From the NCBI GenBank assembly GCA_030248135.1, contig JASANC010003074.1, positions 182,501-246,500 on the forward strand: 64,000 bases of DNA, written 5' to 3'. A program made the translations under genes and the position numbers. Under the pieces are notes generated by a model. The model ran no database searches. It saw only the letters and a program-made list of their open reading frames with translations, and was not told where the DNA came from. Below, in pieces: positions 16,554 through 47,167 of this stretch. The first letter of the stretch is position 1; every line of letters starts with the position of its first letter. This DNA is from Theristus sp. LFF4_11. Lineage: Eukaryota > Nematoda > Chromadorea > Monhysterida > Xyalidae.

Positions 16554-19500
16554 TCACTCGTCATCATCGCTGCTCTCATTGTCCTCAAAGTCGACCACCT
16601 CCACGCCGCCCTCGTACAGGCCAGCGATCTCCTCAGCATTCACCTCGAACGTGCTGCACGTCGCCGTCGCCGCCTCGTCCGAATCGTCATCCGCACTTCG
16701 AAGCGGCCTCTTCCGCGGTCGGCCGACCTTGCTCTTCGCCAACGACCCGCCGCCCGCCTTTTCCCGACCGTTCCTCTTCTGGTCGCCGTCGTCGCACGGT
16801 TCGCGCGTGATCACGAGCATGTGCCGGATTCGGATCTTGTCTTTTTTGTTGCCGCCCGGTTTTGATTGCGGCGCAGTGGACGCAGCAGCACACGATCCGA
16901 ACGAGCTGGAGGGAACGTCAGACGACGACGACGACGACGTCGCTCCATTCACAGCCCGTTTCGTCGCCTTCTTCCGCCGCGGGCTCGTCTGCCGTGCGAG
17001 CGTCTTGTTGTACTGCGTCACCGGAATCGAGTCGAACTGACTGTCGCGCAGCTTTTCGGACGGCAGCTTCAGATTGGCGCCTCGCAGCCACCGTCTGATG
17101 GTGTCATTCGACACGTACAACTCCTTAGACATGTACGCGATCGAACGGTGCTCCTGCAGGTACATGGCGATCGCGCGCGCTCGTTTCTCCTCGCGCATCT
17201 GTGCAAAAGTTGCTGAATGATAAATACTTTTTGATCTTGTGTTTCCGATTTTTGAAAGAAACTCAATCACATTGTCTGGTCTAAACTCTATAACAGATAC
17301 AACTAAATTGCTGTTGAGGCGGCTTGCACAGAATCCGTGCATGCACGTGACACAATGAACCTGTCTTGGTGTTGCTGGAACCAACTACTAACGGCCGTTT
17401 CCTGCTCTCAATCTTTCGGATTTCTCCACAAAACGACGAAACCGTGCACCAAAGTGCACCCAACAGCGAACAGAGCCCATAATCACGGAAGCAGAAAACC
17501 ACAGCCGGGTGGTGGCGGCGACTGACCTCCGCATAGCCGTCCTGCACCACCCGGAAGTCCTTCTTGCCGGTCGCATTCCCGCGGCCCAACTTCTTCGTGC
17601 GATGCGTCTCCCGATCGGGCATCGTCACCTTGCGTCCCGTGGGCAGCGTGAACGTGTACATTCCATCTTCGACGTGATCCGGCGGGAATTCGCGTTTCAG
17701 TTGCTCGTGATCCTCGCCCTCGAACTCTTTCGCCCAGCGTTGCAGCGTGGCGCTCTGGTGGCCGACGTATTTGCCGAACAGATTCGAGCGGATCACGTAG
17801 CCGGTGTGCGCCAGAATCGCCATCATCATTCGGCGGTATTGCTGGAGAGGAGAATGAAGACATGCAAGCTTATGGAGAAGTTATAGGGAGTCCAGCTGAG
17901 TGGTTGGTGCTTGGTTTGCACAGGCCACAGAAGGTATACATCACGTGATCAGCGACCAGTCAGCTGATTGCCTATAATTTAGAGTTCGGCTGTGGATTTG
18001 TGGGCATCTGGAGGAGTGGTGTTTGCATATCTGTTTTTCTGTTTCGAGATCAGGATTTCGTCACCAGCCGGCGACAGAAAGCCCAAAGGCTCCAAAATAT
18101 CGGTGCGTATATTTATCGTGGTGGAGTGTTCACAGCCTCTTGCAAGGTTGCCAAAACAAAGGGTCTATATCAGTCCACGCGCTCTGGACCGAGTAAATTA
18201 GCAACTTCAACAGTTTCCGTCGATATATTTTTGGGCTCGGAACATTCTCACCAAGATTTCCGGCGCAAAGTTCGATGTTTCTCAACAAAACGCGCTCACC
18301 ACGGTGCCGATGTTCTGCCGGCCCTCCTTCTTCACAGCGATCACTCGCTCATCAGGCAGCGTGAACGTCAGCTCCCCGTTTTCGTCCTTGTCCGGCGGAA
18401 ACTCGCGCATCAACGTCTCCGGATCCTCGGTCTCCTTCAGGCGGGAGATGATCTCGCGCAGTGTGCACTGTGGCTGCGCAAAGTAGAACGTGAGCTTCCA
18501 GATGCTCAGTTTGCCGTGCAACATGATCGCGTAGACCATGCGTTCGTAGCGCTGCGAACACGAAATTCACGCAGAATTTATTACATCGGTTCTGCTTCAT
18601 CGGCCGTCACTCAGATGCAGAAGACGGGGTGGGTGGGGTGATGGTGATGTGCCGTGGGCACTCTTGAAAACACAATGCGTCGTGTTCATGGCTCAAAGTA
18701 CTGGGCCATTTTTGATCATTGCCTTTGAGTTGTTGCAGAAGTTCCAGCACGTCGTGAACTCGTTTGAGTGAGAACAAAATGCCCCCCAAGGCCCAAACGC
18801 GACAGATAATTTTTGCCAGTTTCTTTTGTCTTCCACAAAACCGATTGCAGAATATTGAGCTATTGAAAAATGACAAAGGTACTTTATGCATGAACACAAC
18901 GAGCAGGTAGGGAACACTTCGCGCGCCTGAACGCCGGTGGGAAAACGCAGTATAAGAAAACGAATTGAAAAAATATTCCAAAACAACACCAAAAACACCC
19001 GTACCGATTTCTGCGTGGCACATTCTTTGGCGTCCCAGCGCGGCACCTCCACCACCCGGCCGGAGCCGAGCAACGTGAACGTCATGACGCCCGTCTTCTC
19101 GTCGACAGCGTCCGGCGGGAACTCGGCCTTCAGTTTCTCCGGGTCCTCCCGGCGGTAATAGTTCAGACGGCGTTGGATGCGATCGCAGCTGCAGTCGATG
19201 TAGTGGCGGAGGCGGAACGCACTCAGCTTCGAGTGGTGGTAGATCGCGACAATCTGACGGTCTTCGTCCTGCAATTGCGAAAATGGGTGGCAACGCCCGA
19301 CAAAAAAACATGGTGCGGGCCTCGCCTCCGTCGGAAGCTGAGCTCATTAAAAACCGCCGCGGTAATAAACGCGTAAAGAAAATTCTCAGTTTTGATTGAT
19401 AAACATTTTATATTTCGATTCTCAAGAACTGTACGGACAGAATCGTGTACGGCATTTAGCACAACAGTCGTGCGTGTGACGGACACTGCACGATTTCTAA

Positions 19501-21476
19501 ATCCCGTGCGCAAGATTGTCCGTCCGCACGTGCGGACACACCACACGACTTTTTGCCGACGCGAATTAGTCGTCCGTGTGTGCGCATATGACACTTCAGT
19601 CGTTCTAAATGCGGTGCGCAGTTTTCCGTTTTGACGTGTGGCGCAAGCGAAACGACCGCATTTAGAACGACGTGCGTTCCGTGCGTACGTACGAAAAACT
19701 AATCGCCTTAATGAATCAGTTCTTGCGGCTCGCGAAATGAAATTAAATAAAATGTACAGGGTGGGCCAAAAAAAAGGTTCCATTTTCAAACTGCTGTCAC
19801 TGGCTGGTATTTCAATATTATGAGCTGAAATTTTCAGCATTGATAAAACATGTGATGCCATTTTTCTGACAAAATTTTTATCTAGTTTGGTCAAGTAGAT
19901 TCAGTTTTACAGCACAATGTTTAAAAATTCCCAAATTTTCAAAAAAAACGGATTTTTAACCAAGAATTTAACAACGAATCATTGCTCATAGACATCCAAA
20001 TCATCATCAAGGTTTGTCGTCCGGCAGCGGCTGGATGGAATTTTACGCGAAACTGGCGAGTCACTGCAGAAAAACTTTCAGATTGCTCCCACCAGATAGC
20101 ACACCAGACCCGTTGTTCTGCTGTCCACTTAACCATGACGAAACTGCAGAAAACTGAAACTGAAACACTGTTTTTATTCAAACCGCAGAAAAACTTTTCA
20201 AAAGAAACAAATTGACAGACAGAGCAACACAGAAAACAAAAAATCAACTTAACAATTCTTTCTGTCGCAGTCGCATGGCTGCTGACTCGAGTCCGTTGTG
20301 AAACATCAGAATTTCGCTCGAGGTGCTCAAATGCAATTCAAGTGTGAGACCTTTCCACTCTGAGCGCATGATTTGAACTATCGCGGGTATCCAAAAAGAC
20401 CAATTTGTCACTTTCGCAACAGTTTCAAAATTGAATCACGCATCTTGATACTAATTTTTTCTTGCACTCATTTTAGTCAATTTGTTAATTTTTCGAGTTT
20501 TTTTTAGAAAATCTGCCACAGTGAGCGCTAGGAATTATATATCGGAAAAAAAATTTTGTCAGTAAAATGGCAACGCATGTTTTATCAGTGCTGAAAATTT
20601 CAGCTCATAATATTAAAACACCAGCCAGTGACAGCAGTTTGAAAATGGAACCTTTTTTTGGCCCACCCTGTACTATCTTCGCGGAGCTCGCGGAAAAAGC
20701 GGGCCTGTCAAGCCCCCATCTACCTGCAGCTTTCGGCACAACCCCAGAGTAAAACACTCGCCAGTCGCAGGGCATTGAAAAAACAAAAACAAAACCGTAC
20801 CGGGTCAACCTTCATGATCTTCACGGCCGGCGCCTGCGGTGCGCAGCTCTTTGGGATCGTGATCCATTCATCATCGATCAGTCGGCATCTCCACTCCGTC
20901 TCAGTTTCTGTGTTTGGCACAAAAGAACACGTGCGCTTTTCAAAGAAGCAGAACCACTTACATTTCTTAAAAGAGTTTTTTTAGTTATAGAACAGCATTT
21001 CGACTCACCGGAACCGGTCACATACAGACATACATTGGGAATTTTTCTCTCGACATTTTCTGAATTTTTTTACGGTGATGCGCTCATGTTTAGATTCCTG
21101 TTGCTGGCCCACGACGGAATGCTCAGAGAGAAAGACCGGAGTCCGACACCCACCACTACTACATTCGTATTACCACTACAAAATCCGAAATAAAACCAAA
21201 AGATGCCCATCCTAAAAAACCGCACAACGAACCAGTCAACCAGCTGCTGTTGTCCACAAAGCCGTCGAACAGCGAATGACTGCCGTCCGCCAGATACGAG
21301 TCGCGCCACATGCGAATGCGCCGCCCGCTGATGCCCGGAATCAGCAGGTCCAACTTTGCGATCGAGCAGTTCGTCGTCGCGAGAATACGACACACCCGGC
21401 GCTGGAAGGCGGCGTCGTTCGCGAACGGATAGAACGACTTGCGCGGTTTCTTCGTTAGTTTGTCCGTGAACTCCAT
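16554..21476 (-). CDS. Multi-HTH protein A with AT-hook (unknown family)
   Basis: Six phase-matched exons: 21233-21476, 20801-20907, 19005-19268, 18300-18551, 17527-17841 and 16554-17198, giving 608 aa. Start: the ATG lies 6 nt after a cattgcag acceptor, as in a trans-spliced nematode message. An N-terminal HTH (R-R-V-C-R-I-L-A, about 25-60) is followed by a degenerate hairpin motif (I-T-I-P, about 95). Three HTH-plus-hairpin units follow at 118-205, 206-289 and 290-394, each with E-F-P-P-D and T-F-T-L. A last HTH (about 397-434, S-N-D-T-I-R-R-W-L) precedes a Ser/Lys-rich tail with an AT-hook V-G-R-P-R-K-R (552-558) and an acidic end. The AT-hook and HTHs suggest nuclear DNA binding. I recognise no named family; a domesticated transposase origin is possible but no catalytic domain is seen. 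Paralogues B, C and D lie downstream. Confidence 0.75.
17880..17993. mobile_element. TACAGTCGAAC-type MITE, copy 2 (left end decayed)
   Basis: Has tagggagtccagctgagtgg ... cagctgattgcctataattt and then agagttcggctgtgg at the right end. It lies in an intron of gene A. Confidence 0.65.
19420..19735. repeat. Degenerate inverted-repeat sequence in an intron of gene A
   Basis: Repeated gtccgt/acggac and cgatttctaaat words occur with inverted copies around 19,430-19,500 and 19,590-19,700. Similar words (gtccgtacgcacagacgtcg, cgatttctaaatgg) recur at 37,405-37,530 in an intron of gene B. It is probably an old MITE. Confidence 0.45.
19755..20672 (-). mobile_element. Internally deleted Tc1/mariner-like element
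   Basis: Flanked by TA, with long terminal inverted repeats of about 120 bp beginning cagggtgggccaaaaaaaag and ending tttttggcccaccctg. On the minus strand at about 20,135-19,990 it encodes M-V-K-W-T-A-E-Q-R-V-W-C-A-I-W-W followed by S-F-S-A-V-T-R-Q-F-R, the HTH start typical of DUF4817-type mariner transposases. The catalytic part is missing, so it is non-autonomous. It sits in an intron of gene A. Confidence 0.85.
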
Positions 21477-21711
21477 CGTTCACTGCAATGTCCGATGGAA
21501 ACTTTCTGGACTCCTTCCTTGCCAGAGAAATCTATGTTTGTCCAAATTTATTAATCAAATCAAACTCTCAACGCGCCTGTCGTCGTCGTCGTGCCAGCGG
21601 CTCAGACGACCGACTGTGTGTGTCAAATCAAACGTCACAACTCACAAGAGAAAAAATGCCGAAAATGCGTCTCCGCCGCCGACAGTGTACGGTATCGACG
21701 ATGGTCGCGGT

Positions 21712-22741: not shown

Positions 22742-22749
22742 GTCGCGGT

Positions 22750-29474: not shown

Positions 29475-32400
29475 TTATGTCAGCAACGCCTCACTGCTGC
29501 CAGCCGACGACGACGACGGCGCCACAATCATCGACAGCGGCTCCGCCTCCGGCACCATTGGCTCCGCCTCCGGCATCGTTGACTCCGCCTCCGGCATCGT
29601 TGACTCCGCCTCCGCACCGGCCGGTCGACCCGCCCTCGTCGTCGTGACCAGCCGTTTCTTCTGCTCGCCGTAATTACCGCCGCCCGCGCGTTTCCAGTAA
29701 TAGTGGAGAATCTGATAGGAAATGCCGCAGCTGCGCGACGCTTCTGCCATACTTTCGCCGGCCTCGAGACGCCGCAGTCCCGCAGCGATCAGATCGTGCG
29801 AGTATTTCTGTGGTTTCTGAGAACATGGAGAAACGTGTGTATTATCGATTTTTTTGCGGTTCTGCGACTCAGTGCGGGTAGTGCAGACGTACAGTCAATC
29901 TCGCTAATATATGCAACTACCTGATTGGTTGGTCATAGCAACTCTCAGCGCTGATTGGTTAATCATGAGGTGTTCTCAGCGCTGATTAGTTGGTCATCAC
30001 GTCATGTTAGCGTCATGTTGCATATATTTTCCAGACGGACTGTAGAAAGGAAACTACGATATGGTCGAGTAAACATGGCAGCTTTTTTCAGGGTGCAAGG
30101 AGCGCGCGAATTTTGAATGAAAGAAAAAAGACGTTCAGAAACCAAATTGTGTGCCAAATTTGACGCGTTTTTTTAAAACTAATGGATTATCTGCGCTATT
30201 ATGTTCATTCTTTATCCCTTGTACACATGATTGGGAATTATGTTGGTTTTTTGTTGAAAAAGACAACTCCTAGTCTGCGGCTGATCGCGCCTTGATGGAC
30301 TGCCCCATTTATTCGGCCATACTGTAACAACAGAGTATCCCAAGGCAAGGACCAAAATATGATGGGAGAAAACGTGAATGAACAAATAATGTACACTACT
30401 GAGCTAAATTTATCACTGCCTCATGTACACAGACTGCCTCATTTATTCGGCCATACTGTACGTAGTATCAATCAAGATTCAAGATAGCTCAAGTGACTCG
30501 GCGCTAATTAGGGTACTCGGATCTATTTGCCAGTTTGAGTTCCCGCGTTATGCAGTGAAACTGTTTATAGTCGCCCTGGATATTTTGTAGTATTAGCTGT
30601 TTGGTTGCCTGAACATCAGGTTCAAAAAAAGAAATTGGAATGGACATATTTATTCTTTTTTCCAGCTTTGTGATTTCTGTGCGTTTGTTTTGTGTGGGTA
30701 GACAAGCAGTGAGATATTGATAGAAATAAATCTTGTTTGTGATTTATGAGATGAAGACATCAAAAGCAGCAGTCTTCATAGCAAAAAAGTTTATTTTGTT
30801 TCAAAAAACAACGACGGCGACGACGACAGTTGGAAACCTGAATTCGCTGTCAAATAGTAGCTGCTTTAATTTTTTGATTAAGGAAAACGCTTTGTTCTAT
30901 TTGTGTGACGTACATTTTGTAAAAAGCAGACTTGTTTTGCTGTCAATTCCCTTTTCCAGTAACAACGACGGCGGCGACGACAACGTTCGTTGTTCTTTCT
31001 TTGTCAAATTGACAATTCGCTTTGAAAAATGTTTCTGTTGAAACATAATTCCTGTTTTACCTTCAAGGTTTAAATTTAAAGCGACTATTTCTGCAGCATT
31101 TTTTTCCGAAGGGAAACGTCGTCGTCGTCAGTTATCGTCCCTTTTTTCGAACAAAAAAAGAGTTTCTTTACCATGAAATTTGCTGCTTTTGATTTGTCTG
31201 CAACTCCCAAATCATGAACAAGATTTTTCCATTAAAAATCTCACTGTTTGCCCACGCAAAATAAACGCACAGGAAATCACAATACGCAGAAAAAAGAAAA
31301 AAATTCTTTTTTGAACCTGATGTTCAGGCAACCAATCAGCTATTACTACAAAATATCCAGGGCGACTATACCTATCTGAGTCTCGGGAACAAAAGAAAAA
31401 AGAATAGTTTACTGTTAAGAAAATATGAATGGATAAATGTGCAGGAGGAGTGGACTCGTGCTTTATAAAGTCAGTTAGTGGTGGCTGTGTTCCCTGCCCC
31501 AGCGTGCTGGCCTCGGAGTCTGGATTTCCGTGTGCACCCTGCCTGCTGACACTTGAATTAGTGTGTCAAATAAAATTAATAATCAACTGGGCCGCGCACT
31601 TTCGGTGAACATGTCCGGTAAAAACTGATTGGGCAGAAACCTTGATTTAGCCCACAATCAGCGTGCCATTGGTCACATAAGCACTGTTGCGTTTTTCGCC
31701 CATAACTCGTTTCAAGTTTCTGGAACAATCCACGTGCTTGCTGCTAAATGGATCCACTTTAGAATACCTATTCCGCCAACGTGACTCAACTCGCCACCTG
31801 TCGGTGGCCTCAAAAATTGGCGATGCTCAACCGTATTTCAGGTGAACATGCCGGGTAAATTGGGAAAAGTTTTCAACCAGCAATAAACCCCACTCGGCTA
31901 CGCCTCATTGTGTGGGTTATCGCCTCTGCGCAAAGCTGATCAAAAGAAAGACTATGGGCAAGGTTATTCACACGTGCAACATCAACCGAGCAATGCACGA
32001 ACGTAAACAAAAATTTTAGTTTGCCTTTGGTTAGGTCCATCAAGCTTTTTGAGTCCAACACAGTTTGGAATACGAAATTTTTCCATTCACTATTTTACAT
32101 TCAGCATGAGCAATTCCAGCACGCCGATTCCGGAGAAAAAAAAGAATCCGGATTTTGAACTCAAATGTGAGCAGCCACAGCCACAGTGGTTCAATTTCAC
32201 GTCGACTCGACAACAAAAGTGCACACAGCCACAAAAACCAATCAGCAAAACGAACAAACCAGACCAAAATAAATTTAAAATTCGCGCCAAAACCAAGCGA
32301 GCACACACTCACCCTGCTCGCGCGACTATGCACCCTGATTCGTTTGCGCGCGAAATTCAAAATGCTCGCGCTGTTCGCACTATTCGCCGCGTTATCCGAT

Positions 32401-35400
32401 GCTTTCTCACTGTTGTTGCTCATGCTCAAATCAATCGGTGCATTCTGCTGCAAGCTGATTGGTGTGTCCGGCGGTGTGCTGGTCGCTGATTGGTTGACTG
32501 TCATTGGAGTGGTCGGTGTCACCTGGAAACAGCTTGGAATTTGTAAATTCTCAAAGAAAACCAGGAAAATTGTGTGTTTGCGCACGCAAATACATAAATT
32601 GTTGTAATCTGGCAAAAAATCGGAACTTGTTAACAAGTAAAACAGCAAAAGAACAAGTTGCTGTGAGAAGAGATACACATTTACGCCACCAACTTTCACA
32701 TTCAATCAATCACAAAAACTCACCGCGTTCGATCGCGGCGTGCCCGAGTTTGTGCTGCGGCGTCGTCGTCCGCTCGGCCCGGCCCGTTTCCAATAATAAT
32801 GCAACACCTGATACGAAAGACCGGAGTTCCGCGAGGCCTCCGCCAGACTTTCACCAGCCTGCAGGCGTTTAATGGCCGAGTCGATTTGTGACGGCGAATG
32901 ACGTTGCACTTTCTGAATAATTGCAGCGTTTTTAAGCGTTTCTTTCGTGAAAAAAAGGCAATTGAAATACAACAAAGCAGGTTATAAAAACCAGAGTCAA
33001 ACTGAAATCTAGCAGTGGATGTCTCGACTGCCAAATGTCCCAGGAATGCAATACATCTACGTTTGGCAGATTGGTTGGCCTGTCTACGCTCACTGCTTTA
33101 ATCTGAACTTGTTGACCAAGCCAAACGGCGCATACAGGTCGAATTCAAAAGAAACAAACCAAAAATTTGCAAGACAAGGTGTGTTCGATTAAACCAAATG
33201 CTAATGCTGATTGCGTCACGTTGCGTACCCGCACTGTCTTCTGTCCGGAGTACGATTGACGTTCGCGCGTGTTTGCTTTCGCGGGCTTTTGGTGCGAGAA
33301 ATTCGGCGTCTGCTGATTCAGCTGGCTGAGTATCTGGAACAAAATGAAATCAATTGAATACAGAGTTAGACGTCTGCGAACGGATTTGTTGTTCGAACCG
33401 AACTGCATATCCAACATGCTCAGTTGCAAACAGTAGAATCGGAAAGTAATAAAATCCACTAGCACGCAACCAGCAAGATTCTGGCTGACCGGCTGGTTTG
33501 CGAATTGTGTTCAACCATGGTACAGTACAACAAGCAATCAATGAGTAAACAAAATTAATCATAAAAAAACTCGAGAATTCCGTTGTCTGTCTTCCACAGC
33601 TTCGCACAAAAATATCATGACCACTCCTAACCGAGTCTGACGACTGGCAAAATGGTGCGAACATCGGACTGTTATAATCGTTGGCAGGCGAGGTCGGCAG
33701 CACAACAACCGGCGGCTTAGCGTTGGACGCGGTGGGCGGAGACAAGTGCTGCTGGAAAAAGAAGTGGCTGAGAGGTTTGGCTTGACTAAGGATCAGGACA
33801 GGCTCGAAAAAAGTGCCGTGCAGTACCGGGACACGTCACTTTAGGATTTACGCTGGTTTGTACCTGACATACGTAGGGGTGGGTCGGTATAAAAAACGGT
33901 TTTTTTCGGTATAAAAAACGGTATAAAAAACGGGTTTTTATACCAGCGCCAAAAAATGGCCAAAATAAATTACCGATATTTTACCGCGTAAATTTTGGTT
34001 TTTTTCCGGTTTTTATACCGCCGAAGGACCCAAATTTCAATTTTTGAAATCACTCAAAATGCACTGTATTCCGCATATCCATTTCAATTTTCATTTTCGC
34101 CACTTCATAACTTGATGTTCCGGAGAACACAATTCACGCTCTTGGTATAAATAAAGCACCCTGAGACCCGTGTCAAGTGTTGCTGGCAACAGCACGGAAT
34201 CGTTGCTGTCAAACTGCGACAGCACGGATTCGCAGTCCCCGTCGGCAGCGTCAGCTGCTGCCACTGAGAACATTGCTGCGCTTGCATCGGCAAATTGTGT
34301 GGACAGCTCTGATGACGATGGTGACGGCTGCATTGATGATACTCGTGATGATGATGATGAATAGACAAAAATCGGGTGAATTGCTAATATTTATTCAGTC
34401 AAATTTCCTGAAATTTTGTGTCTTTGAACTCGGAAATTGCTCAAAGTTTTGTTGGTGATGTCGTCGTGCTGTTGTACTGATGATAATGACCCGAATCTCC
34501 ATCTGATTTTTTGCTCTTTCAATTTTGTTCTTGGCTCACTTCTTTCGTCTGTGCGGGTTCGTGATTCTTTTTGTCTTTCGGTGATCTTTTATTTAGAAAC
34601 GCGGTGAAATTGTTGTGCAGTTACATATCTCTCGATCGTGTCAGTTCAATTGATTTGCATGTATCACATTCCTTGCTGTTTCAAATATCAATCTGTCTTG
34701 CGTTAGTTTTTTTGTTTTAAACTCTCATCTGATAATTTTTCTGATGCTGCATTCTCTCTAAGCGCCACCGATTCAAATAAAATCAAGATTGGAATACGTT
34801 TCCATTGAAACACATACAGTTTCTGGCTAGAATTGTGGTCTTTTACTCATTATTCAGCGGTTTGCGTAAAATCAGAGTACCAGAAATTGTCGCAATCACA
34901 AGATTCTTCAAATACTGGGTCGGTAAAAAAACCGGGTATAAAGAACCGGACGCGGTATAAAAAAACCGTTTTATATACATGGATTTGAAAAAAACCGTTT
35001 TTTACCACCCCTAGACATACGACAACGTACGTCAGGCGCGAACGAACGCAAATTCAAAAACTAAACGTGACCTGGCGGGTCGGGCCGTATTGCTAGTTTT
35101 TGCACCAAGAACGAGACGTGACGTGACGTGCCGTCCCGTGCCGTGCCGTGCTATATGCGCACACATCAGGTATAAACTGGCCTCTACGTTTGCCATCAAA
35201 AAATAGAAAACGTGCACCAGACCAACCAGTTGTTGCTGCCCGAGCAACGTGGCGGCGGCCGCTGCGGCAGCCAACTGGAACATCATGAAACTGCCTGGTG
35301 CACTGGTCGGCCACTGCAGCAAGTCGGCGTTCAGTTTCGGCCCAGCACCACCACCATTGTTGTCATTTTCACACTCAACAGCAGCACAGTGGACGCTAGT

Positions 35401-38400
35401 CGCTGTCTCGTCCGGTGGACTATCTTCACGCTGATGGTGGTCGAATTTCGGCGAGAAATTGGCGGCAAATTCAAAAGTGTTCTCCGGCGAATCAACCGTG
35501 GATCGTGTTGTTGTTGGCGTGATGGCCGATTGGTTTTCGGAGTCCATTGGCTCGGTGGTCGGCGGGTTTTCGCCAGGTTCAACAATCGGGAGCGAGTGAT
35601 TTTGAGGAGTTTGATGTTCCGTTTCAGGTCGGGTCACATTTGGCGCCTCTTCTTTGGCGAGTTCTTCAGTTTTAGCCGCTACATTCGAGGCCGCCGTGCG
35701 TGAGCGCAGTTTCGCGACGATGTCGTCGATTCGTGCACGTTTCACCGGTGGCGCTGTCGGCGATTCCAACTTCAGCATTTCGTCGTCTGGCTGCTGCTGA
35801 TTGCCGCAGTCGATTTTCTGAGGCTTCACGACCTGGAATTGGACAAAAACAACGGTTTTTTAAATTGTAAGAAAAAACTGAAAAATCGATCAAAAATCAT
35901 TGTTTTCGAACATTCAAACGTGAACGAACGCGACGAGGCGGGCGTGATGTGCGCGATCTGGATGGTGATGGTGGACTCTTACAATGGTGTTGTTGTTGTT
36001 CTATTTGTTGAGGATTTTAGGCGATGTTTTTAGCCAGGGCAGGGCTAACCCAGAGAAGTGCACAGAACGCCGTCGAGTGGGGCACCCATCGAGTTTCCTC
36101 TGTCCTCATCAAGTGCCTATACACCCCTCGGCGGGGTTCGATCCCCGAACGCACAGACTTAAGAGTCTAATGCGCTACCACCGAAGCTACGAGCGGTGGC
36201 GATTCAAGTGCACTATTACAGTCGCATTTTCAAAAAGCACATCAAACTATTACTATTAGTACCTCAACGGGTACGCCGGATGCGTCCAATAAGCACTGGT
36301 CACTGTATTGCTCGTCGGTGGTGTCGTCAGCTGCATTTTGCGCCATCACCGCCGCCGCCGGCTGGTTCCCGTCCAGCAGTCGTCGCATCTGCACCCATCG
36401 ACGGACGGTCCGCTCAGAGACGCCCGCCTCGCGACTGATCTGCGACATCGACTTGGTGCCTGCGGCGGGCGAATGAAGGGGAAAATTTGGTGAGAGCACG
36501 CCGACAAAAGTCGAACTCTATGAGCCTATGACATACCCAACCAGCAAAAAGCAAAAAGTCTTCTGGGAACACACTGAAAACAAAAAAAACGGTTCTTTTA
36601 CCCAATGCAAACAGCCGAAAAACGTGCGCTTTTTCGGCGTCCGATTTCTGGGCATTTGGGGCCGGAGGGCGATTGGCCAGGGTGTGGTCGAATTCCGGCA
36701 CGGTCACGGTGCGGCCATTCGGCAGGTGAAACGTCAACTGACCGTCGTTGACGCTGATTGGCTGATGCATCGCTTTCAGACGTTCTTTTGATATCTGGCC
36801 TGAATGGAAGGGACACACCGTGTTTTGAAGTGTCATTACCGAACATCAAGCTTGAAAAATTTCAAACAGGAACCTTTGGAACTGGATCAAGCCAAACATC
36901 AAACACAAAAGTCAGAACTGTCCAAAATGTGCATAGTAACTTTTTGCAGGCACTACGGGCATGCCGGTTGGACTTTATCAACCTGACATGGCGAGAATCA
37001 CTGAGCTGCTTTTTCAGATGTTTGACACAACAATTTCTTTATCTGATGGAACAAAAAATAAATCGGCGAATTTAGATCCCCTTGAGGAGTGTGACGCTTG
37101 TCTTTAAGATTGTGCGTTCATCACGAAGACAAAGACGAAGAAAAAAACGCAGCTGATTTCAAACAACATGTTGTTGTTGTTTTGCGGTTGTGCAGTGTTG
37201 TAGCTGATCAGCTCGACGTTGCGCCGAGAGCTGCATATGGCAGTCATGTGGCAGCTTTTCTTGCTAGTTCCGCCGAAACGGTACACGTTTAGGCGCCGCT
37301 GTGAGGCGGATGCCAGGGACTGCACCTGCCGGGATACCAAGCTCCGCTTCCGACGGAGGCACGCACCCATTACTCCCCTGGCGAAAACGACATTTAGTTT
37401 TTTGTCCGTACGCACAGACGTCGTACGCACTGAACGTGTCCGTAACGCATTAAGAGAGAACACACACGATTTCTAAATGGCGTGGCCATTTTTTAAGCGT
37501 CGTGTCCGTGCGTACGCACAAAAATCTGAATGCTAAATGCCCGTTTACACACGATCGCTAACCTTCGAACTCGCGACACCACTTTCGAATGGCGGTGCGC
37601 GAGTGTGCCAGATGCGCCTGCAGTACCATGTACGACTGGGCGGTGTGCGCTGCGACGGCGGCGACCGCGCGACGGTAGTCGAGGCCGACTCCACCGTGCG
37701 ACATCTGCATTCATGCTTCTTTGATTCACAGTTCAGCTCACGTTTTGTTAGGCGATGTTTTCAGCCGGAGATAACCCAGAAAAGCGTACAGAACGCCGTC
37801 GAGTGGGGCACCAATCGAGTTTTCTCAATCAAAACGTGCCTATATATGTTATCCTTTCACGTAAAAAAAATAAGAGGAAAGCGCGAGAGTCAAGCTGACA
37901 ATAATACTGGTGCCTGTGCATGCAAGGCGCTTTTAAACCAATTCAACGTCATTCGGTACGACAGGTTTGTACAAAGTTACAGTATTGTTGCACAAGTGGT
38001 CGAGCCAGTTGCCTTTTAGGTATTTTTGTGTTTTCTCTCGGAAGTCGGATTTATTTATTTCGATTCTGCGCTGCTATTTGTCTGTGTCACCTTTTTGTAA
38101 CCCTCCCTCTGAGCGTATGCAAATACACAATAAAAAATCGGGGAACCCCGTCGTGTCTCAGTGAAACAAAATTTCGCAACCCAACGGACAAAAATGATGC
38201 CAGATTGACGCGTCACTATTCCCGATGTTGTGCGACCAGCCGGCTTGACCATCAATAATGGTATGTGTTTGAACGTACACATTCGTATTCGGAATAAAAT
38301 TCGAATCCAAAAAATGCCCAACACTTGATTGAAACTCCACCAACCTGCTGATTACACGCAGCCTTCTCAATCTGTACCATGTGTCCATTTGGTAGCACAA

Positions 38401-39433
38401 ATCGGTGCTCAGTCTCCGTCTCCGTGTGCCACGAAAGATCCACACCAGAAGTGACACCTGAATAAAATAGAAAATAAAAATAAAAATTCAGTCGTCATTA
38501 TGTCACCGGTCATCTTCGCCGGTTGAAGACGACCCAAAAACTTGACTAACTTTTGACAAAAACGGCTTGACTTTGATGCCTGCCGGAGGCTTAGCTAAGG
38601 AAACGTGCGCCGATGACTTAGTTCATTCTCGAAAATTCTGGTTCAATCGAACAGCTGACTTCCGCGTTTTAAAGACGTTTTTTCAATCAACCACGACACA
38701 ACGTAATAATTTCCGAATGATTAGGCTATAAAGGGTTTTTTGGAAAAAACTTTTTTTCGTTTCCCAAATCCGGGTTTCTTCAACCGAACCCTGATCTCCC
38801 TGCAACGCACCGTCGCGTCCGGGTTGCCCTCTAAGCATCCACTTTCGAATCGTCGACTTGTTCACGTGGATCTGACGCGCAACATCACGAACGGAGCATT
38901 TCGTGCGTGCGATGATCTGACAGACGCGGGATTTGAACTCGGCCGTGAAGATCGTGGCGCCGTGGTGATGGTGCGGTGCGGTGGATGCAGGCTGGGTGCA
39001 CTGCAGTAAAGAGAAACTTTTCATGAGAAAACACACTTCTACGTTATTTTTTATATCGGTTCCGAGACTCAATGCGCGCATAGATAAGTAAACAGTTTCA
39101 CGCATGACGCGGCAATTCAAAGTTGGTACAGTTATCCGAGTCCCCTAAAACTGGCTGTGAACAGTATCAATACCTCGGTTCACGGGTTGCTGGTTAAGAA
39201 AACAAAACTCGAATGAGTTGGAACAGAGGAAAACAAATAAAATGTGAAGCTAGAGTTTCTTAAACGGTGTTTGACAGCAAATTTTGGTATCACTTCTTAA
39301 AAATTGTCCAGTATATGTCATGACACCCAACCAGACTGACCTTTCCAACCGCCAGTTTTGCGTGTTGCACATTGGTGAGCGCATTATGAACTCGTTTTCG
39401 ATAGTCACTCAGTGGTTGCACTCGTCGAGGCAT
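29475..39433 (-). CDS. Multi-HTH protein B with two pipsqueak-type HTHs (unknown family)
   Basis: Twelve phase-matched exons: 39341-39433, 38790-39000, 38345-38457, 37563-37704, 36602-36799, 36263-36459, 35227-35832, 33632-33751, 33235-33333, 32724-32912, 32313-32522 and 29475-29816, giving 839 aa. In order: HTH1 (S-R-V-C-Q-I-I, about 50-90), hairpin (V-L-P-N-G-H-M-V), HTH2 (140-187) with hairpin F-H-L-P-N-G-R-T-V-T-V-P, HTH3 (S-E-R-T-V-R-R-W-V), K-R-A-R-I-D-D-I-V-A-K-L-R in a long Ser/Pro/Ala linker, a pipsqueak-type HTH (about 597-638), P-I-D-L-S-M-S (685-691), and a second pipsqueak HTH (730-772) ending L-H-Y-Y-W-K-R-A-G. The last elements resemble E93/LCOR-type corepressors that bind CtBP; this is by motif only. 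The start is an ATG 5 nt after a ttgcag acceptor. That exon also joins in frame to gene C, so B and C could be one 1,111-aa protein. Confidence 0.7.
29890..30050. mobile_element. MITE with inverted ends (acagtc ... gactgta)
   Basis: Starts tacagtcaatctcgctaata and ends gcatatattttccagacgga plus ctgta. Three internal gctgattggt or ctgattggttggtcat copies occur. It is similar in style to the TACAGTCGAAC family but distinct. It lies in the last intron of gene B. Confidence 0.65.
30490..31395. mobile_element. Foldback element (~0.9 kb)
   Basis: Imperfect inverted arms: agtcgccctggatattttgt with gaacatcag on the left against acaaaatatccagggcgact and cctgatgttc on the right. Inner pairs around 30,735-30,790 and 31,165-31,235 share cttgtt-atgattt and caaaagcagca words. 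Its left end overlaps the dispersed repeat with agtgactcgg. No coding content. It is intronic in gene B. Confidence 0.75.
31785..31995 (-). mobile_element. SINE-like repeat with tRNA A box, copy 1
   Basis: About 210 bp is the reverse complement of 60,888-61,095 with few differences. On the minus strand it reads gaggcgtagccgagtggggt, a close match to the tRNA A-box pattern TRGCNNAGYNGG. A B box is not clear. Confidence 0.7.
33874..35013. mobile_element. hAT-like element in an intron of gene B
   Basis: Bounded by the 8-bp duplication gacatacg (33,866-33,873 and 35,014-35,021). Terminal inverted repeats are taggggtgggtcggtataaa against, in reverse, taggggtggtaaaaaacgg. Plus-strand 34,170-34,364 is a 64-codon frame ending in acidic S-S-D-D-D-G-D-G residues, perhaps a transposase scrap, but no hAT catalytic motif is visible. 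Confidence 0.85.
35915..36196 (-). mobile_element. tRNA-derived SINE, copy 1, with attached piece of gene C exon 1
   Basis: The tRNA-like head is 36,123-36,195 on the minus strand, with A box tagcttcggtggtagcgc, a cttaag anticodon region and T-arm cggggatcgaaccccg. The body runs to an aacaacaacaac tail near 35,990. Beyond it, 35,915-35,965 encodes I-Q-I-A-H-I-T-P-A-S-S-R-S-F, almost identical to the N-terminus of gene C (M-Q-I-A-H-I-T-P-A-S-S-R-S-F). In gene C the same SINE sits directly upstream of that exon. Confidence 0.8.
36123..36195 (-). tRNA. tRNA-like SINE head (tRNA-Lys-like; not a functional tRNA)
   Basis: A- and B-box-like sequences and a good T arm are present. The anticodon arm does not fold with a normal 7-nt loop and the acceptor stem is weak, so I read it as the promoter head of the SINE rather than a working tRNA gene. 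Confidence 0.45.
37745..37845 (-). mobile_element. tRNA-derived SINE, headless copy 2
   Basis: Matches the SINE body (ttaggcgatgttttcagccg, gaacgccgtcgagtggggca) but lacks the tRNA head. It lies immediately upstream of the acceptor of gene B exon 37,563-37,704. Confidence 0.75.
39060..39150. repeat. Dispersed repeat, copy 4
   Basis: Contains gagactcaatgcgcgcatag, then gtaaacagtttcacgcatga, as at 5,280-5,440. It lies in the first intron of gene B. Confidence 0.6.
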
Positions 39434-39447
39434 TTTTTCCTGCAAGT

Positions 39448-39622
39448 ACAGTCGAACTTTTAATTATAGGCAATCAGCTGATTGGCTGGTGATGCACGTA
39501 ATGCCTGCTTTCTATGCAGGCATTGCCGAGGAGGCGGAGTCTATCCTGCACAGAAGCCATACATCACGCGATCATCAAACAATCAGCTAGTTGGATAGGT
39601 ATGTTATAGAGTTAGACTGTAC
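39448..39622. mobile_element. TACAGTCGAAC-type MITE, copy 4
   Basis: Begins tacagtcgaacttttaatta and ends ttatagagttagactgta. It fills almost the whole gap between the 3' end of gene C and the start of gene B. Confidence 0.85.
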
Positions 39623-39636
39623 AAAACTTCAATGGC

Positions 39637-40911
39637 TCACAAGTAAAAAAATCCTACGATTGAAAAAGAGCAAACTTGCGCAACCTTCTTGACCGGGCCG
39701 TTCTCGTCGACGCCGCCAATGTCCGGGCACTGCTCGGTCTCCGCCCTCAGCTGCAGCCAGCGTCTCACCGTTCGATAGGACTTCTCCACGCGCACGCAGA
39801 TCTCCGGCACCGTCAGTTGTTGTTCGTCGGCCAACCGGAACGCCAGTGCCTTTTTGGCCGCGATTTCGGCCAGTTTCGAATTGCTACGCGTGTCAAACGA
39901 CCGTTGCTCGACGGCGGTCTCATCGAAAGTGTCGTCGTTGTGTGCCGTTTTCGTCGGAATCCGCACCACCCGTCCGGTCGGCAGCACAAACGTCAACAGA
40001 CCATTGTCGTTTCGACTCGGCCGGAATTCGGCGCGCAACAGATCGGCCTCGCCGGCGAATTCGTGCGACCACTTTGCCAGGGTGGAGCCGGAGTGGCCGA
40101 GGTGTTTCTCGAGTGTGAATGGGGACTGTTGGGTGTGCAGGGCGACGGCGGCGAGCGCGCGGCGGTACGACGGTGGGTGACCGTGCTGAAGGTTGAGGGG
40201 AACACTCGCATGAGAAAACACGGTTACCAAGTGCATCTGTTCCTTTTATTCTGAAGCGGCGCAATAAAATTGTGTGAACACACACTTCACGGCACCGGCA
40301 GTGAAGTCAATGGTGCTTTATCTGTGGAAAATATTGTCTGTTTTAAATCATAGTGAACGGTTTATTTTCAGCCCGCCCACCTGTTTATAACAGGCCATCT
40401 TTGGGATGCGCACGATTTTCTTGTCGGGCAGTCGAAATTCAAACTCCCGCTCGTTTTCAGTGTACCACTGCTCCGTGTCTTCCGCCGCGTCGGTTGATTG
40501 TCTGTAAAAGAAGAGAATGAAACATGATCATGACTTTGAATCTTTTGACAGAATACAAGATCTCACGCCAATGCCATTACTAGCGCAACAAGCGACTGCT
40601 AAAAACGTATGATACATGCGCATTACTCATCCAGTAGTTATAGCGCACCAAAATAACGAGTTGAACTGACTGGACGGGCAGAAGAATGAAGAAAGCGCCA
40701 AAATTGAACACAAGCTCTTCCACCTGTACTCTCGGAAGCGTCGCTTCTGATGCTGCCAAAATGAAATTGTCGATTTGCTGACGCCAATTTGGCGACCGAC
40801 CGCCGTCAGTGAGCACTCGGTGATGGCGAGAATCTGGCAAACACGCCATTTGTACAGACGCGAATAGGCGAACGAACGCGACGAGGCGGGCGTGATGTGC
40901 GCGATCTGCAT
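39637..40911 (-). CDS. Multi-HTH protein C (unknown family)
   Basis: Three phase-matched exons: 40724-40911, 40381-40501 and 39637-40185, giving 285 aa if the last exon is read to its own stop. HTH1 (about 18-58) has W-R-V-C-Q-I-L-A-I-T-E-C-S and is followed by a hairpin F-E-F-R-L-P-D-K-K-I-V-R-I-P. The third exon alone encodes HTH2 (Y-R-R-A-L-A-A-V-A-L-H-T ... L-G-H-S), hairpin T-F-V-L-P-T-G-R-V-V-R-I-P, and HTH3 (S-Y-R-T-V-R-R-W-L). It lacks the K-R-A-R-I-D-D region of B and D. The ATG is 12 nt after an actcag acceptor. A donor at 39,684 would join in phase to 39,341-39,439 and on into gene B, so C could be the 5' part of a longer gene. It probably binds DNA; no named family is recognised. 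Confidence 0.62.
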
Positions 40912-41465: not shown

Positions 41466-41636
41466 ACAGTCGAACTCTAAATTATGGGGAATCAGCGTCG
41501 TCGTTGGTGATCACGAGATCGCATGCTTTATGTGCAGAAATTGCAGTCGGGGTGGAGTTTGGTTTGCACAGAAAGTTTGCATGCACGTGACCACCAAGCA
41601 ATCAGCTGATTCCCTATAATTTAAAGTTCGACTGTA
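41466..41636. mobile_element. TACAGTCGAAC-type MITE, copy 5
   Basis: Ends are tacagtcgaactctaaatta and taatttaaagttcgactgta, inverted over about 25 bp and flanked by TA. It lies just 3' of the stop codon of gene D. Confidence 0.88.
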
Positions 41637-41653
41637 TTTTCAATGAAAGAAAT

Positions 41654-44600
41654 TCAAGCAAAGAGCCTTCCTCCAGTTGCAACCTTGTTCGGCGCCACCA
41701 GCCTCCGATGGTGCACCCCACTCAGCGTGTTGCGCGCTCGCTTCTTGGCGATCGGCCGACGATTCACCGACAAATACGCCTTCGTCTTGTGCGATTTCTA
41801 AATTGGATACCTCAAAAAACCGCAAAATGGAAAATATAAACAGTCATTTCAGAAGCGAACCAGTTTTCCACCGACTTACAAGGCCTAAAATACGCCAAAA
41901 AACACTGATTTGGGGCGCACGATGCCCGTGAACCACAAATAAGCAAGCAGCACACTACGTTCAGAAGTTCTGCCAACATCTCCTATTCTCTCTCAGATCT
42001 CAGACTCAGAGAATCTCAGAAAGCAAAATACTCACAATACCAACTGCCACTATCAGATCTCACAGCGATTCAGGCAGCTCAAATTCAAAATTCAACGTTC
42101 ACTCGCCGAGTGCCAGTGCCCTTTTAACGTTCAAAACACTCACTTTTCACCGGCTGAGTCACAATTTCTCGTTTCTTGCTTGGTAATGAATGATTCTACA
42201 TCACCCTAAAATCCAGTCACCGCACCTTTCCAGCCAGCGGTCGCAGACGATTCTCGTCTTTCCCACCCGAATCACCAGTCGCCGCCGTCGCACCGGCCGA
42301 ACTCGAATCCGAATGGCGATGCGACTCGCCGGCAGCGGGCGGTTCTCCGTCGACATTTTTTTCCGCCCCCATTTTCACGAACGCCCCCGCGTCCATCGAG
42401 CTCTCCGATCCGGAGCCACCGTCGCACTCCGAATTCGAACACGACGATGAATCGTCCGTTGTTGGTTCGTTTCGATCCTCCGCCGCCGTCGTCGCTCCGC
42501 GCAGCTTTCGGATGACGTCGTCGATGCGCGCCCGTTTCGCCGGTTTTTGGGATTCGATCGCGGATTCCGGCAGTGAAGTGGGAGGAGGGGACGTAGGACT
42601 GGCGGAATTCCGCTGTGGCTGGTCGGGATTCCGCTGTTGCATCCATCGACGGATCGTACGAACCGAGATGTGCGTGCGTGCGCTCACTTGGACGATTGGA
42701 ACCTGAGAGGAGACAGATGATTGGCAATGGAGATGTGGTGGGGTTGCAGTTGAATTCATTTCGTGTTTTACATTGCAGTTGCGCAGCAGCGAATCAATCG
42801 TTTGTCCAATTCCATTTGGTGTTCATCCCGACTGTCAGTTTGTCTAGTGCAGTTCAAATCCAAACCGAGTCAATTATGCAAATCTGCACATCATGTAAGA
42901 TGCAACAATGTGTAAATTGGGTTAGGGGCAGTATGGCCCGTTTCCACCGGAGTTTGGTACCTCAGGGTTTCCAAAACCGGTGCGCAAATGAAATAAAAAA
43001 CATCCACCCCCGCCTGTTCGCCCGCGAGGAGACCGCACCTGCTGATCGAGCATCTCAAAGACGCGCTGGCGTCGTTCGTCGCGGTCGCTTTCCCGCGAGT
43101 AGTGCGGTGTGCTGAAGCGGGCCGCCAACGACGGCGCGTGCGAGGAGCGCGGTATTGAGACCGTTTTACCGGCGGGCAATTGGAACGTCAGAATGCCGCC
43201 GTCGTCGGTGGTCGGCCGGTACTGCTGCTTCAGTTGGTGCTCCTCGTGCGCGTAGCGGAGCGTCCATTTTCGCATGGCCGTCCGCGAATGACCGAGGTAT
43301 TTCTCGAGCGACATGAATGATTGGCCTAAAGGGAAAATGGGCGAATTTTGTGATTGCAAAATGTGGCAGAAAGAACAAAGACATTGTTGGTTTTTTATTT
43401 TGTGGTTCTGCAGTGATTGGTTGGTTGGCTGGTGTAATGGAATAGTTATAGTGCTGGCTTTTGTTGTTGTGTTTCAGCACTTCATTTGCCACTGATCTCT
43501 GAATTTTCTCGGTTTTTAGCTTTTGTTGATGTTTTGACGTGAACATACATGTCAGAGATGTGCACGGGGGGTACTTAGGGGGTACCGGTACCGGCAAACG
43601 TCGCGCGTCGCGCAGGGCCTGGGGGCTACGTCGCGCAGCGCCTCGGTCGGAGTTGAAAGAGACAAAAGTTTTACACATGAATTTGATTGCCAAATCGAAA
43701 TCGATAGCCCATGTCGCGCATTTATCAGTCAAAATTACGGTCTGCTATTGTGCTTTTGTTGTGAGCTGCTGAAATCGCTGCAATCCTTTTAATTCACAGA
43801 TGTCCCGCACATAGTTGTTCCAGAGCCGAGGGGTTGGGGGGGGGCCGATATAGATAGCTGGAGCAAATTTTCTAGATAGATAGATAGCTGGAAAATTTTG
43901 GGGGGGCCGCGGGGGTAGGGTTAGGGGGAAAAAAAAATCCGGATTTTTTTTTTTAAATTAAAAAAAAAATTTTTTTTAAAAAAAAAAAATTTTTTTTTAC
44001 AAGTTAGGTTTGTTCGAAGCGTCTCGTCGAGCTGAGTTCATCTAGACTATTTTCAGAACGATCCGGAAAACTATAAGAGCGAAAATCGTGTTTTATTGAA
44101 ATTATGTCCATTTCATAGAGGGAAAGTTGCATTTTCAACAGTAAAACAGGACAATTTTCGACGTGTACTTGAATATTGAACCGTTCTTAGTTGTTCCTCT
44201 TTAGAAAATTACCAAAATTTGACTGTGTTCAAAAATTCCTGTTTGCTGTAGCTAAGTCGGCAACCCCTGTCGACCCGGTCGCCCCCCCCCCAAGACACTT
44301 ACTTTCAGGTTCAACCAGCTATGCTATCTGCCACATGGCGAGAGCCCACTCTTCAAATCATCGTATCGAAAACACGTACCATGATTTCGCGATCACGTTG
44401 CGGGCAACTGACAGACGCAAGTTTAACACGTTAGTTTAGCTCAGCACGCAAGTTTTAACATGTGGCCATGTTATCGGGTATCTGAAAAACGGTCGTGTGA
44501 TGTGGTATTAACCAACATCTCCGCTCCAATTGTTTAACAATGTATCGCACAACTCCATTGTAGACCTATAACATACGCCAATCAACAAAATATCATGTTC

Positions 44601-47167
44601 ATCTCATGGCCTACCACCGACTGAAAAAACATGTTCTAAGTTGCAAGAAAACGATTTCTGAAACGATATTTCAATTCAGTTAAGTCATTTCAACGCTAAA
44701 AATTGACTCTAGAAGTCATCCAAATCGAAAAACATGGAGTACGTCGGTCAAAATGACCAAATAATGACATGTACCTAAGCACACAAAGAAGTTGGGAAGA
44801 AAATTTGGTTTGAACTTTCAAAAAATTATGCCATAAATCGAATTTTCAGAGCAAAGTAGAAGAAAAATTTTTCAAATTTTTTTTTTAAGTTTGAAAAAAA
44901 AAATCCAAATTTTTTTTTTAAAAAAAAAACGAAAAAAAAAATAAAAAAAAAATTTTTTTTTCAAAGCCCCTAACCCTACGCGGGGGGGGGCATGTGACTT
45001 TGGGGGGGGGGCGGTCAAAATTTTGAAATTTGATAGATAGATAGCTAAAACGCTAAAAAGCTATAAAAACAGCAAAATAATGCTAAAAATACACTAAAAA
45101 TCAAGTATAAACGCGTATTTTACCTAAAATTAGCGAAATTTTCAAGAATTACGAGCAAAAATGGTCAATTTTGGTTAAAAAATGACTCATTTTATGTCTT
45201 CGAAGACAAAAATTTTCAGATAGATAGCTGGCTGAGAAAATTTTTTAGATAGATAATAGCTGAGCCGAAAAAACCTGTTTGATAGAGATAGATTCGAAAT
45301 TTTTTTTTGGGGGGGGGCCGGCCCCCCCAGGCCCCCCCCTAGAACAACTATGGTCCCGCAGCGCCTCAGGTGGAAGAGACAAAATTTTCACAAGTGAAAT
45401 TAAAATTGCTTCAAAATTAAATTCGAAGATTTCAATTGACTGACTGTCGTGGTACTTCAGTAGGTTGCAAAAAAATCGCGCTGCGCATGTAGATGGTAAG
45501 CACATTTTATTCCGCAAATGTGAGTTGCACAGACATCCAGGTTTTTTACGCAAAATCGTGCGTCAATGACGCAAAATAATTTGGTATGACACAAAGAAAT
45601 AGGTCGTTTCGGTCAGCTTTTTTGATTATCTCAATTTTCGAAGATTTCAAGGCATTGTTTTTTAGAAATTTTCTGCCCAGATTCAAAATTTTTCTGCGCC
45701 TTCGGCGCAGGACGTGGACACTTTTTAATTTGGCGATCACGAATTCATCGTTCGTTTTTTGATTGTTCAGTGTTTTGCTGATAACCGTTCAATTCAATCT
45801 AAGAATATTTTTGTTGTTTTGACCGTATCAACGATCACTTGGTCCATCTAGCTCCTACGTAAGCTTTTGTTCGCACGTTTTTCTAAACATCTGCGTTTTT
45901 TAACACGTGAATAAATGTCATAGACAGCAAACTACTTTGGATGACATCCAAAAATCGCAAGGTAAAATGCGTTCTCAGGGCCTAATTTTTGAAAATTTTC
46001 TTCGCTACGCGAAGACGTTACAATTTACCGGTTTTTCATTGAAATGAGAGTCAAAGCCACTTTCCGAACGAAACATAGAATAAACTTCAAAAATATAAAT
46101 GTATTTGTATTTGAAATCGCGCTTCGCAAGCAGAATGTGACACTAAATTTGCGAGAAAAATTTGGTGGAGGTGGGGTCGACGTCGCGCAACCACCCGAGC
46201 CGGTACCAGCAAAAATTGTCTGGCGTGCACACCTCTGATACATGTACCATACAGAGCGCATTTTTTCACTTGATGACTACTGGACGAAATGAATAAACTG
46301 AACTGAAAACAAAACGAAACTTATCAGCGAAACAAAAACCAAAAACGCTGACCAGTGTGCGCGACAATGGCTGCGATCAAACGGTGGTATTCGCGGTCCG
46401 GCGGTGATGATTGGATCGGGGACTGCAAAATGGTGATTGAGGAACGCTTGTGCGACTGGATTTTGTTGACTTAATTCAAAACAAGATTTAAAAAACCACT
46501 TTTGTCTTTTGCTTCACACATTTTGCGAGACGGTTTTTTTCCTCCTAACTCCAAACAGTGAACGACGCAGCGAAACTAATGTTAGTTTAGTTGTTTGTGT
46601 AGCTTGATTTCGCTGTCGTCTAATTGAGCAATCAAAAACGTGCCGAAAATGAACTGGAGATAGCACACTGGCTGCCGAAAAACATAAAAAACACAAGGTG
46701 AAACTCGAACTTTCAAGAAAGTCGCATCCATATGACGAGTTTCTCTGCTGGCGAAACAGCCAATTTGACGACGTCTCTATTTCATTTCAACAAGCAAACC
46801 ACAACAACACAAAAACCAAAAAACTCACCTCAAATTCACTGGTCGGCTTCGGGATTCGCACGCGTTGCCCGTCGGGCATGTCGAAGATCCACTCGGCCAC
46901 CGTCTCATCGAACCAACCCTCGTTCACCAGGGCCGTATCGTCGACCGATCGCTGCTGCGGTGGAAACTTCTGGTGGCCCCAGCCTTTCAGCGTGCTGTAT
47001 TTCACGTTCAGTCGATTGGCGAGACTTCGAAACGAGCATTTCGTGATGCGCAGAATTTCGCAGACGCGCTGCTTGAACAACGGCGAGTATTGCACGTTGG
47101 TGATTGGCTGGATTTGGTGGCGGCGACCATCGTCGACGACGCTGATTGGCTGGTCGCCGGTGGACAT
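41654..47167 (-). CDS. Multi-HTH protein D (unknown family)
   Basis: Five phase-matched exons: 46829-47167, 46353-46422, 43039-43325, 42226-42702 and 41654-41797, giving 438 aa. Exon 1 encodes HTH1 (about 30-66, Q-R-V-C-E-I-L-R-I-T-K-C-S) and hairpin I-F-D-M-P-D-G-Q-R-V-R-I-P. HTH2 is split by the large transposon-filled intron (R-L-I-A-A-I-V-A-H-T / Q-S-F-M-S-L-E-K-Y-L-G-H-S). Hairpin T-F-Q-L-P-A-G-K-T-V-S-I-P and HTH3 (S-V-R-T-I-R-R-W-M) follow, then K-R-A-R-I-D-D-V-I-R-K-L-R in an acidic, Ser-rich linker and a basic last exon (K-K-R-A-R-N), possibly nuclear targeting. It is the most compact full version of the family and useful as its reference. Role inferred: nuclear DNA-binding regulator. 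Confidence 0.75.
42925..42990. repeat. Dispersed repeat (inverse of 3,235-3,310)
   Basis: Reads cgtttccaccggagtttggt ... ccaaaaccggtgcgcaaatg, matching 3,235-3,310 in reverse complement. It lies in an intron of gene D. Confidence 0.7.
43810..45352. mobile_element. Middle nested hAT-like element
   Basis: Flanked by the 8-bp duplication gtcccgca (43,802-43,809 and 45,353-45,360). Ends are catagttgttc and gaacaactatg, followed inward by G- and C-rich tracts. Without the inner insertion it is about 472 bp. It holds gatagatag microsatellite words on both sides of the inner element. Confidence 0.9.
43916..44978. mobile_element. Innermost nested hAT-like element, TAGGGTTAGGGG family, copy 2
   Basis: Flanked by the 8-bp duplication cgcggggg (43,908-43,915 and 44,979-44,986). 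Ends are tagggttagggg and cccctaaccctac minus the final flank base. It is 1,063 bp long and strongly similar along its length to 21,712-22,741, so it is a recent mover. Confidence 0.92.

Follow-up and report, generated by a model that had tools for sequence, protein, structure and literature searches.

Serial helix-turn-helix and beta-hairpin modules in a four-gene cluster of a Theristus nematode: a family of putative DNA-binding regulators

Introduction

Regulators that carry several helix-turn-helix (HTH) motifs in one chain are already a known kind of protein in animals. The DNA-binding region of CENP-B consists of two HTHs, and in HTHs of the CENP-B, Brinker and Tc3 class helix 3 enters the major groove. 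PMC10027918 derives CENP-B from pogo-like transposons, while Drosophila Pipsqueak (Psq) is described in PMC10379775 as having four HTH DNA-binding domains at its C-terminus. In this study, we describe four genes, A to D, in a 64,000-nucleotide stretch (the window) of the nematode Theristus sp. LFF4_11, at positions 182,501 to 246,500 of contig JASANC010003074.1 (assembly GCA_030248135.1); in our numbering the window lies on contig C1974 of a searched genome of 159 Mb in 3744 contigs. The arrangement of HTHs in these four proteins is a variant of the known kind, in which HTHs are followed by beta hairpins. We consider it probable (about 0.62) that the family comprises sequence-specific DNA-binding regulators built of serial trihelical HTH modules.

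Comparison with known HTH proteins

By their sequences, the HTHs of A-D are of the CENP-B/Brinker/transposase class. The cut-off of CENP-B_N (PF04218), 21.2 bits, was exceeded by two of the four HTH1 units (25.4 bits in B and 23.6 bits in C; HTH1 of A and D not listed) and the cut-off of HTH_23 by three of the four HTH3 units, while CENP-B was the top structural row for the model of D HTH1. These matches agree with the transposase-type HTHs suggested in the initial annotation; the duplication suggested there is supported too, and it includes a beta hairpin. The family differs from CENP-B in having three to six HTHs and hairpins, and no transposase domain was among the matches listed. The Pfam lists for A, B, C and D contained neither a DDE/pogo domain nor any other catalytic domain, with B covered in two parts (for the N-terminal one, the best 25 of 42 families) and C and D taken up to their last short exon.

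Pipsqueak resembles A-D in using several HTHs of one protein as the DNA-binding region, and HTH4 of B gives a weak HTH_psq match. However, no HTH unit of A-D was listed over the cut-off of HTH_psq (PF05225), no BTB domain was seen in A-D among the Pfam matches listed (one list being the best 25 of 42), and beta hairpins follow HTH1 and HTH2 in A-D. The only HTH_psq match listed, that of B HTH4, scored 13.1 bits against a gathering score of 20.4, the family being absent from the lists of the other nine units of one set (one of them the best 25 of 27 families) and of a second set of ten, so the earlier idea of pipsqueak-like HTHs is not supported. The cut-off of BrkDBD (PF09607), 23.4 bits, was likewise not reached (18.7 bits for the N-terminal part of B and 15.2 bits for B HTH1 alone; other units not listed), and the architecture differs from that of Brinker. 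Compared with the bipartite domains of Pax and Tc3 transposase, the root-mean-square deviation over the whole chain is about 10 Å and no such Pfam match was listed; to our knowledge, these domains have no hairpin of the A-D type between their HTHs.

Architecture and homology of the modules

All four genes lie on the minus strand between 16554 (stop of A) and 47167 (ATG of D), where every motif quoted in the initial annotation was recovered. The exon chains, which were built by script, have GT/AG at every junction and keep the frame through A, B, C and D. The proteins share the order HTH1-hairpin1-(HTH2-hairpin2)n-HTH3, with n = 3 in A and n = 1 in B, C and D; an example of HTH1 is SRVCQIIARTKCSVRDVARQIHVNKSTIRKW. 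A total of ten hairpins were counted, four in A and two in each of the others, in line with the roughly ten recurrences of the TFxLPxGRxVxIP motif reported before. The exon encoding HTH2-hairpin2 is present three times in gene A, and a phase-0 intron separates hairpin1 from HTH2 in all four genes. Taken together, A-D have the look of duplicated, constrained coding exons.

Profile-profile comparison indicates that HTH1-hairpin1 is homologous to HTH2-hairpin2 (probability 96.6, E 6.9e-10 for a single comparison, 75 columns). HTH1 was also matched to HTH3 (probability 94.5), and the match between HTH2 and HTH3 was weaker (46.8). Structure prediction, which had been proposed for one unit, was carried out with AlphaFold2 on C exon 3 and D exon 1 and gave predicted HTH and beta structure. 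HTH2 is assigned as an HTH from the predicted structure and from its homology to HTH1 in profile comparison, because no HTH2 unit passes a Pfam HTH cut-off.

The mismatch at codon positions 1, 2 and 3 was 0.50, 0.46 and 0.63 among HTH1 units, 0.52, 0.44 and 0.56 among HTH2 units (a small third-position excess) and 0.56, 0.45 and 0.60 in HTH3, with different codons at 47-64% of the identical aligned residues. The third position is the most variable, a pattern that fits purifying selection.

Gene B

Gene B probably continues past HTH3 to 29475 and thereby gains two HTHs of another type. HTH4 and HTH5 are 58% identical to each other across 48 residues and showed no detectable relationship to HTH1-3 in profile-profile comparison. 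The KRARIDD motif occurs twice in the six frames of the window, once in the HTH3 exon of D (as KRARIDDVIRKLR) and once in B exon 6, 30 residues in and in the right phase. Exon 6 is followed by five further phase-0 exons which reach HTH4 and HTH5.

Alternatively, B could be two genes, the first carrying HTH1-3 and ending with exon 5 or 6, the second psq-like and running from exon 6 or 9 to exon 11. When the frame is read through the donor of exon 5, codon 7 is a stop; exon 6 holds an in-frame ATG, and intron 5 holds a dead copy of the C exon-1 start, which is a sign of rearrangement. Against this, KRARIDDV.KLR shares an exon with HTH3 in D and recurs in B exon 6, all later junctions of B are in phase 0, and on contig C2559 a putative exon chain has HTH1-hairpin1 followed by HTH4/5-type HTHs on one strand and in the same order. 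We regard two genes as unlikely, though worth keeping in view, and the pairing of both HTH types in the C2559 relative helps the reading of B as one gene.

Relatives and lineage restriction

The gene on C2559 is a fifth member and a clear relative. Its HTH1 scored 43.4 bits (reached by 0 of 1000 shuffles) and its hairpin exon WWYTEFQHAFSVQLPDGRRVEIAKSK 15.6 bits (0 of 3000); beyond these come a PVKRPK stretch and another three HTHs, and the B HTH4/5 profile recognises two of the three at 13.7 bits each (0 of 1000). The two HTH types thus co-occur twice, in gene B and on C2559. More distant is C1270, where about 7 kb of one strand contain six HTH exons, the fourth HTH being weak. The first matches HTH1 at 26.0 bits, and HTH3 is matched by four of the rest at 11.8-16.3 bits (none of these scores being reached in 1000 shuffles); the sixth exceeds the CENP-B_N cut-off (27.3 against 21.2 bits). 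AIDLS follows the HTH in one exon of C1270, and the score of its candidate hairpin was equalled in 52 of 3000 shuffles. The earlier count of four paralogues is incomplete: it left out these relatives as well as most of gene B.

Other candidates were dropped. C1043 (E 0.48) has no pooled HTH profile match at E < 2. C1935, C1625, C1269 and C1754 gave weak pooled-profile matches (best E 0.0023, 0.81, 0.19 and none, respectively) and no match to the HTH1 or HTH2 profile at E < 0.5. C1529 passes the HTH_28 cut-off, and with the HTH1 profile one of its frames gives E 0.004; its HTHs occur one per gene and look Brinker-like. Such genes are clustered at C1529:71001-79000 (e.g. QYSLDFKLKVLEYNRTHSQNQTSNKFNVDRKVIRYWRDN), and two members of the cluster are near-identical and about 3.3 kb apart. 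C2774 passes the HTH_Tnp_1 cut-off, and its frames at C2774:18001-28000 resemble an IS3-type transposase on a bacterial-looking contig of 266 kb, which suggests that a bacterial contig (symbiont or contamination) is present within the assembly. A query made of two consecutive copies of the hairpin motif gave no match.

In a set of 5.8 billion proteins, none of the 1745 candidates scored for gene C reached E <= 0.01 and none of the 7993 scored for gene B reached E <= 0.1; with gene B, low-complexity stretches may have taken up the candidates. The positive control, the ribonucleotide reductase M2 of the window, scored E <= 1e-50 in all 7998 cases (best 82%; animal sources in ncbi, uniref and nr), and in the 120 control rows listed no nematode is named, many rows having no name. 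The multi-HTH proteins A-D are likely to be lineage-restricted, and this stays short of a demonstration because the control reveals no named nematode in the protein set; of the earlier term 'lineage-specific', the empty search with gene C speaks for it, while the 120 control rows give no evidence of nematodes in the database. Literature searches aimed at a multi-HTH hairpin family found no description, and the available part of PMC10027918 has no occurrence of 'nematod'.

Proposed function

In the proposed mechanism, HTH1 and every HTH2 would lead into a short three-stranded beta element (the hairpin) and from there into the next module, and the third helix of every HTH that has the S..T[IVL]..W signature would enter the major groove. 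The beta element would serve as a spacer or as a wing, its constant position behind HTH1 and HTH2 making either role likely. With three to six HTHs in one chain, compared with the four of Pipsqueak, the expected target of each protein is a long or composite site, and the basic, acidic or low-complexity tails would carry other functions. Gene B is perhaps a repressor, since the PIDLS motif at residue 684 of its long model belongs to a type by which the CtBP corepressor is recruited. The motif fits a recruitment of CtBP (PMC8816384), but when B was shuffled 5000 times, P.DLS arose in 70 of the shuffles. We infer DNA binding, composite-site reading and CtBP recruitment and, from the HTH class and PIDLS, a regulatory role.

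Several observations weigh against such regulators. None of the six HTH2-hairpin units exceeded the cut-off of any Pfam model, which also agrees with the earlier statement that the unit matches no nameable family, and the sole HTH2 with an HTH_28 match, that of B, stays below the cut-off at 16.7 bits. The S..T[IVL]..W recognition-helix signature is missing from HTH2a and HTH2b of A, and these two may be without DNA binding. Foldseek with the C exon 3 model gave no match at E <= 0.001, and the structure comparison bore barely on the hairpin fold. Finally, PIDLS is short and is absent from A, C and D.

The proteins might instead be CENP-B-like chromatin or satellite-binding proteins, serving repeat or centromere organisation and not the regulation of particular genes, which we consider rather improbable given the corepressor-type motif in B. 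A somewhat poorer candidate is a set of transposon-encoded or recently domesticated transposase N-termini that are still tied to a mobile element. The HTH classes are those of transposases and the locus is rich in repeats, one of them an inverted-end element in A intron 2; on the other hand, no chain has a catalytic domain among the Pfam matches listed, the matches to C exon 3 (five of five) and to the A repeats (six of six) were all found only inside the window, and the genes have 5-11 exons with a constraint-type codon pattern. An ancient derivation from transposase HTHs fits DNA-binding regulators as well. That the chains are conceptual only, as pseudogenes or chance exons, is very improbable: the splice junctions are predicted from the genomic sequence, the donor of A exon 1 is ambiguous, the 3' end of D was not found and the first ATG of B lies within a repeat, but the frames are open across all junctions, the intron phase is common and there is a third-position excess.

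Gene models and neighbouring features

The gene models are given in Table 1. Gene A has six exons, and each of the four possible donors of exon 1 is in frame to the stop. The last exon of D is similar to C exon 4 (score reached by 8 of 2000 shuffles). The first ATG of B has a second in-frame ATG downstream at about 39024.

Table 1. Coordinates of genes A-D and their exons in the window (hp, hairpin)
Feature	Position	Strand	Content
Gene A	16554..21476	-	589-617 aa by exon-1 donor; HTH1-hp1-HTH2a-hp2a-HTH2b-hp2b-HTH2c-hp2c-HTH3-acidic tail; stop 16554
A exon 1	21233..21476	-	ATG, HTH1; donor 21233, alternatives 21281, 21221, 21197
A exon 2	20810..20907	-	hairpin 1
A exon 3	19005..19268	-	HTH2a, hairpin 2a; no recognition-helix signature
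A exon 4	18300..18551	-	HTH2b, hairpin 2b; no recognition-helix signature
A exon 5	17527..17841	-	HTH2c, hairpin 2c
A exon 6	16554..17198	-	HTH3, basic GRPRKR stretch, acidic tail, stop
Gene B	29475..39105	-	11 exons, 838 aa in longest reading; HTH1-hp1-HTH2-hp2-HTH3-KRARIDD-HTH4-PIDLS-HTH5; stop 29475
B exon 1	38811..39105	-	HTH1; CENP-B_N over cut-off
B exon 2	38345..38457	-	hairpin 1
B exon 3	37563..37704	-	HTH2
B exon 4	36602..36799	-	hairpin 2, beginning of HTH3
B exon 5	36263..36459	-	remainder of HTH3; joined HTH3 over HTH_23 cut-off
B exon 6	35227..35832	-	KRARIDDIVAKLR motif (from 35742; common to D), low-complexity tail
B exon 7	33632..33751	-	
B exon 8	33229..33333	-	
B exon 9	32724..32912	-	HTH4, transposase/psq-like; alone, all Pfam matches below cut-off
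B exon 10	32313..32522	-	PIDLS (CtBP-type) motif
B exon 11	29475..29816	-	HTH5, stop
Gene C	39145..40911	-	317 aa, 5 exons; HTH1-hp1-HTH2-hp2-HTH3-basic tail; stop 39145
C exons	40911-40724, 40501-40381, 40185-39685, 39439-39341, 39189-39145	-	
C exon 3	39685..40185	-	HTH2, hairpin 2 and HTH3 in single exon; AlphaFold2 model
Gene D	41684..47167	-	at least 429 aa, 5 exons, 3' end not found; HTH1-hp1-HTH2-hp2-HTH3-KRARIDDVIRKLR-acidic region-basic tail
D exons	47167-46829, 46422-46353, 43325-43039, 42702-42226, 41797-41684	-	
D exon 1	46829..47167	-	HTH1 and hairpin 1 in single exon; AlphaFold2 model

Intron 2 of A holds, at 19754-20673, 126-nucleotide inverted ends (94%) around a short transposase-like frame, MVKWTAEQRVWCAIWWEQSESFSAVTRQF, for which a Pfam search gave nothing over cut-off. 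A 1.08-kb element is present in 93% identical copies at 21706-22748, upstream of A, and at 43910-44983, in D intron 2, with a part at 11541-11802. The stop of C and the first ATG of B are 39 nucleotides apart (39105-39145), an operon-like spacing, but this stretch overlaps a dispersed repeat. In B intron 5, the dead copy of the C exon-1 start (35922-35972; 52 nucleotides, 96%, ATG lost) is accompanied by a flanking repeat resembling a short interspersed nuclear element. Two U4 small nuclear RNA genes in opposite orientation, both scoring 111.1 bits, were observed at 31795-31937 (minus strand, in B intron 10) and at 60940-61082 (plus strand).

Between B and A, the minus strand carries exons for the small subunit M2 of ribonucleotide reductase (24000-26520; 82% to a crustacean protein). 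The cluster is flanked on the minus strand by a TPR gene at 10500-13800, presumably similar to SGTA (its TPR matches are from Pfam), and by a cuticle collagen gene at 50000-52200. The nematode cuticle collagen N-domain has 84 matches in the genome, one of them inside the window at 51990-52115, against none in 14 control genomes, which marks the genome as that of a nematode. For SL1, neither an exact match to the canonical leader nor an Rfam match was found in the genome, which is odd for a nematode; Rfam SL1 was also silent in all 14 control genomes, and these searches can overlook common words and lacked a positive control.

Implications

A bolder possibility, which we hold as tentative and on balance doubtful, is that a trihelical HTH together with the three-stranded TFxLPxGRxVxIP beta element forms an undescribed DNA-recognition module that has been arrayed by a nematode lineage, where exon duplication would have changed the number of modules and array length would correspond to different long sites. 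If true, such HTH arrays would parallel, in an animal, the modular arrays of zinc fingers. Should the module be a working DNA-reading unit, A-D would provide a natural modular HTH array in which the length of the site could be compared across paralogues, from the single HTH2-hairpin2 of C and D to the three of A. In addition, gene B and its C2559 relative would show two HTH types coming together in one protein. The family would also add to the repertoire of nematode transcription factors a group that domain libraries have largely passed over.

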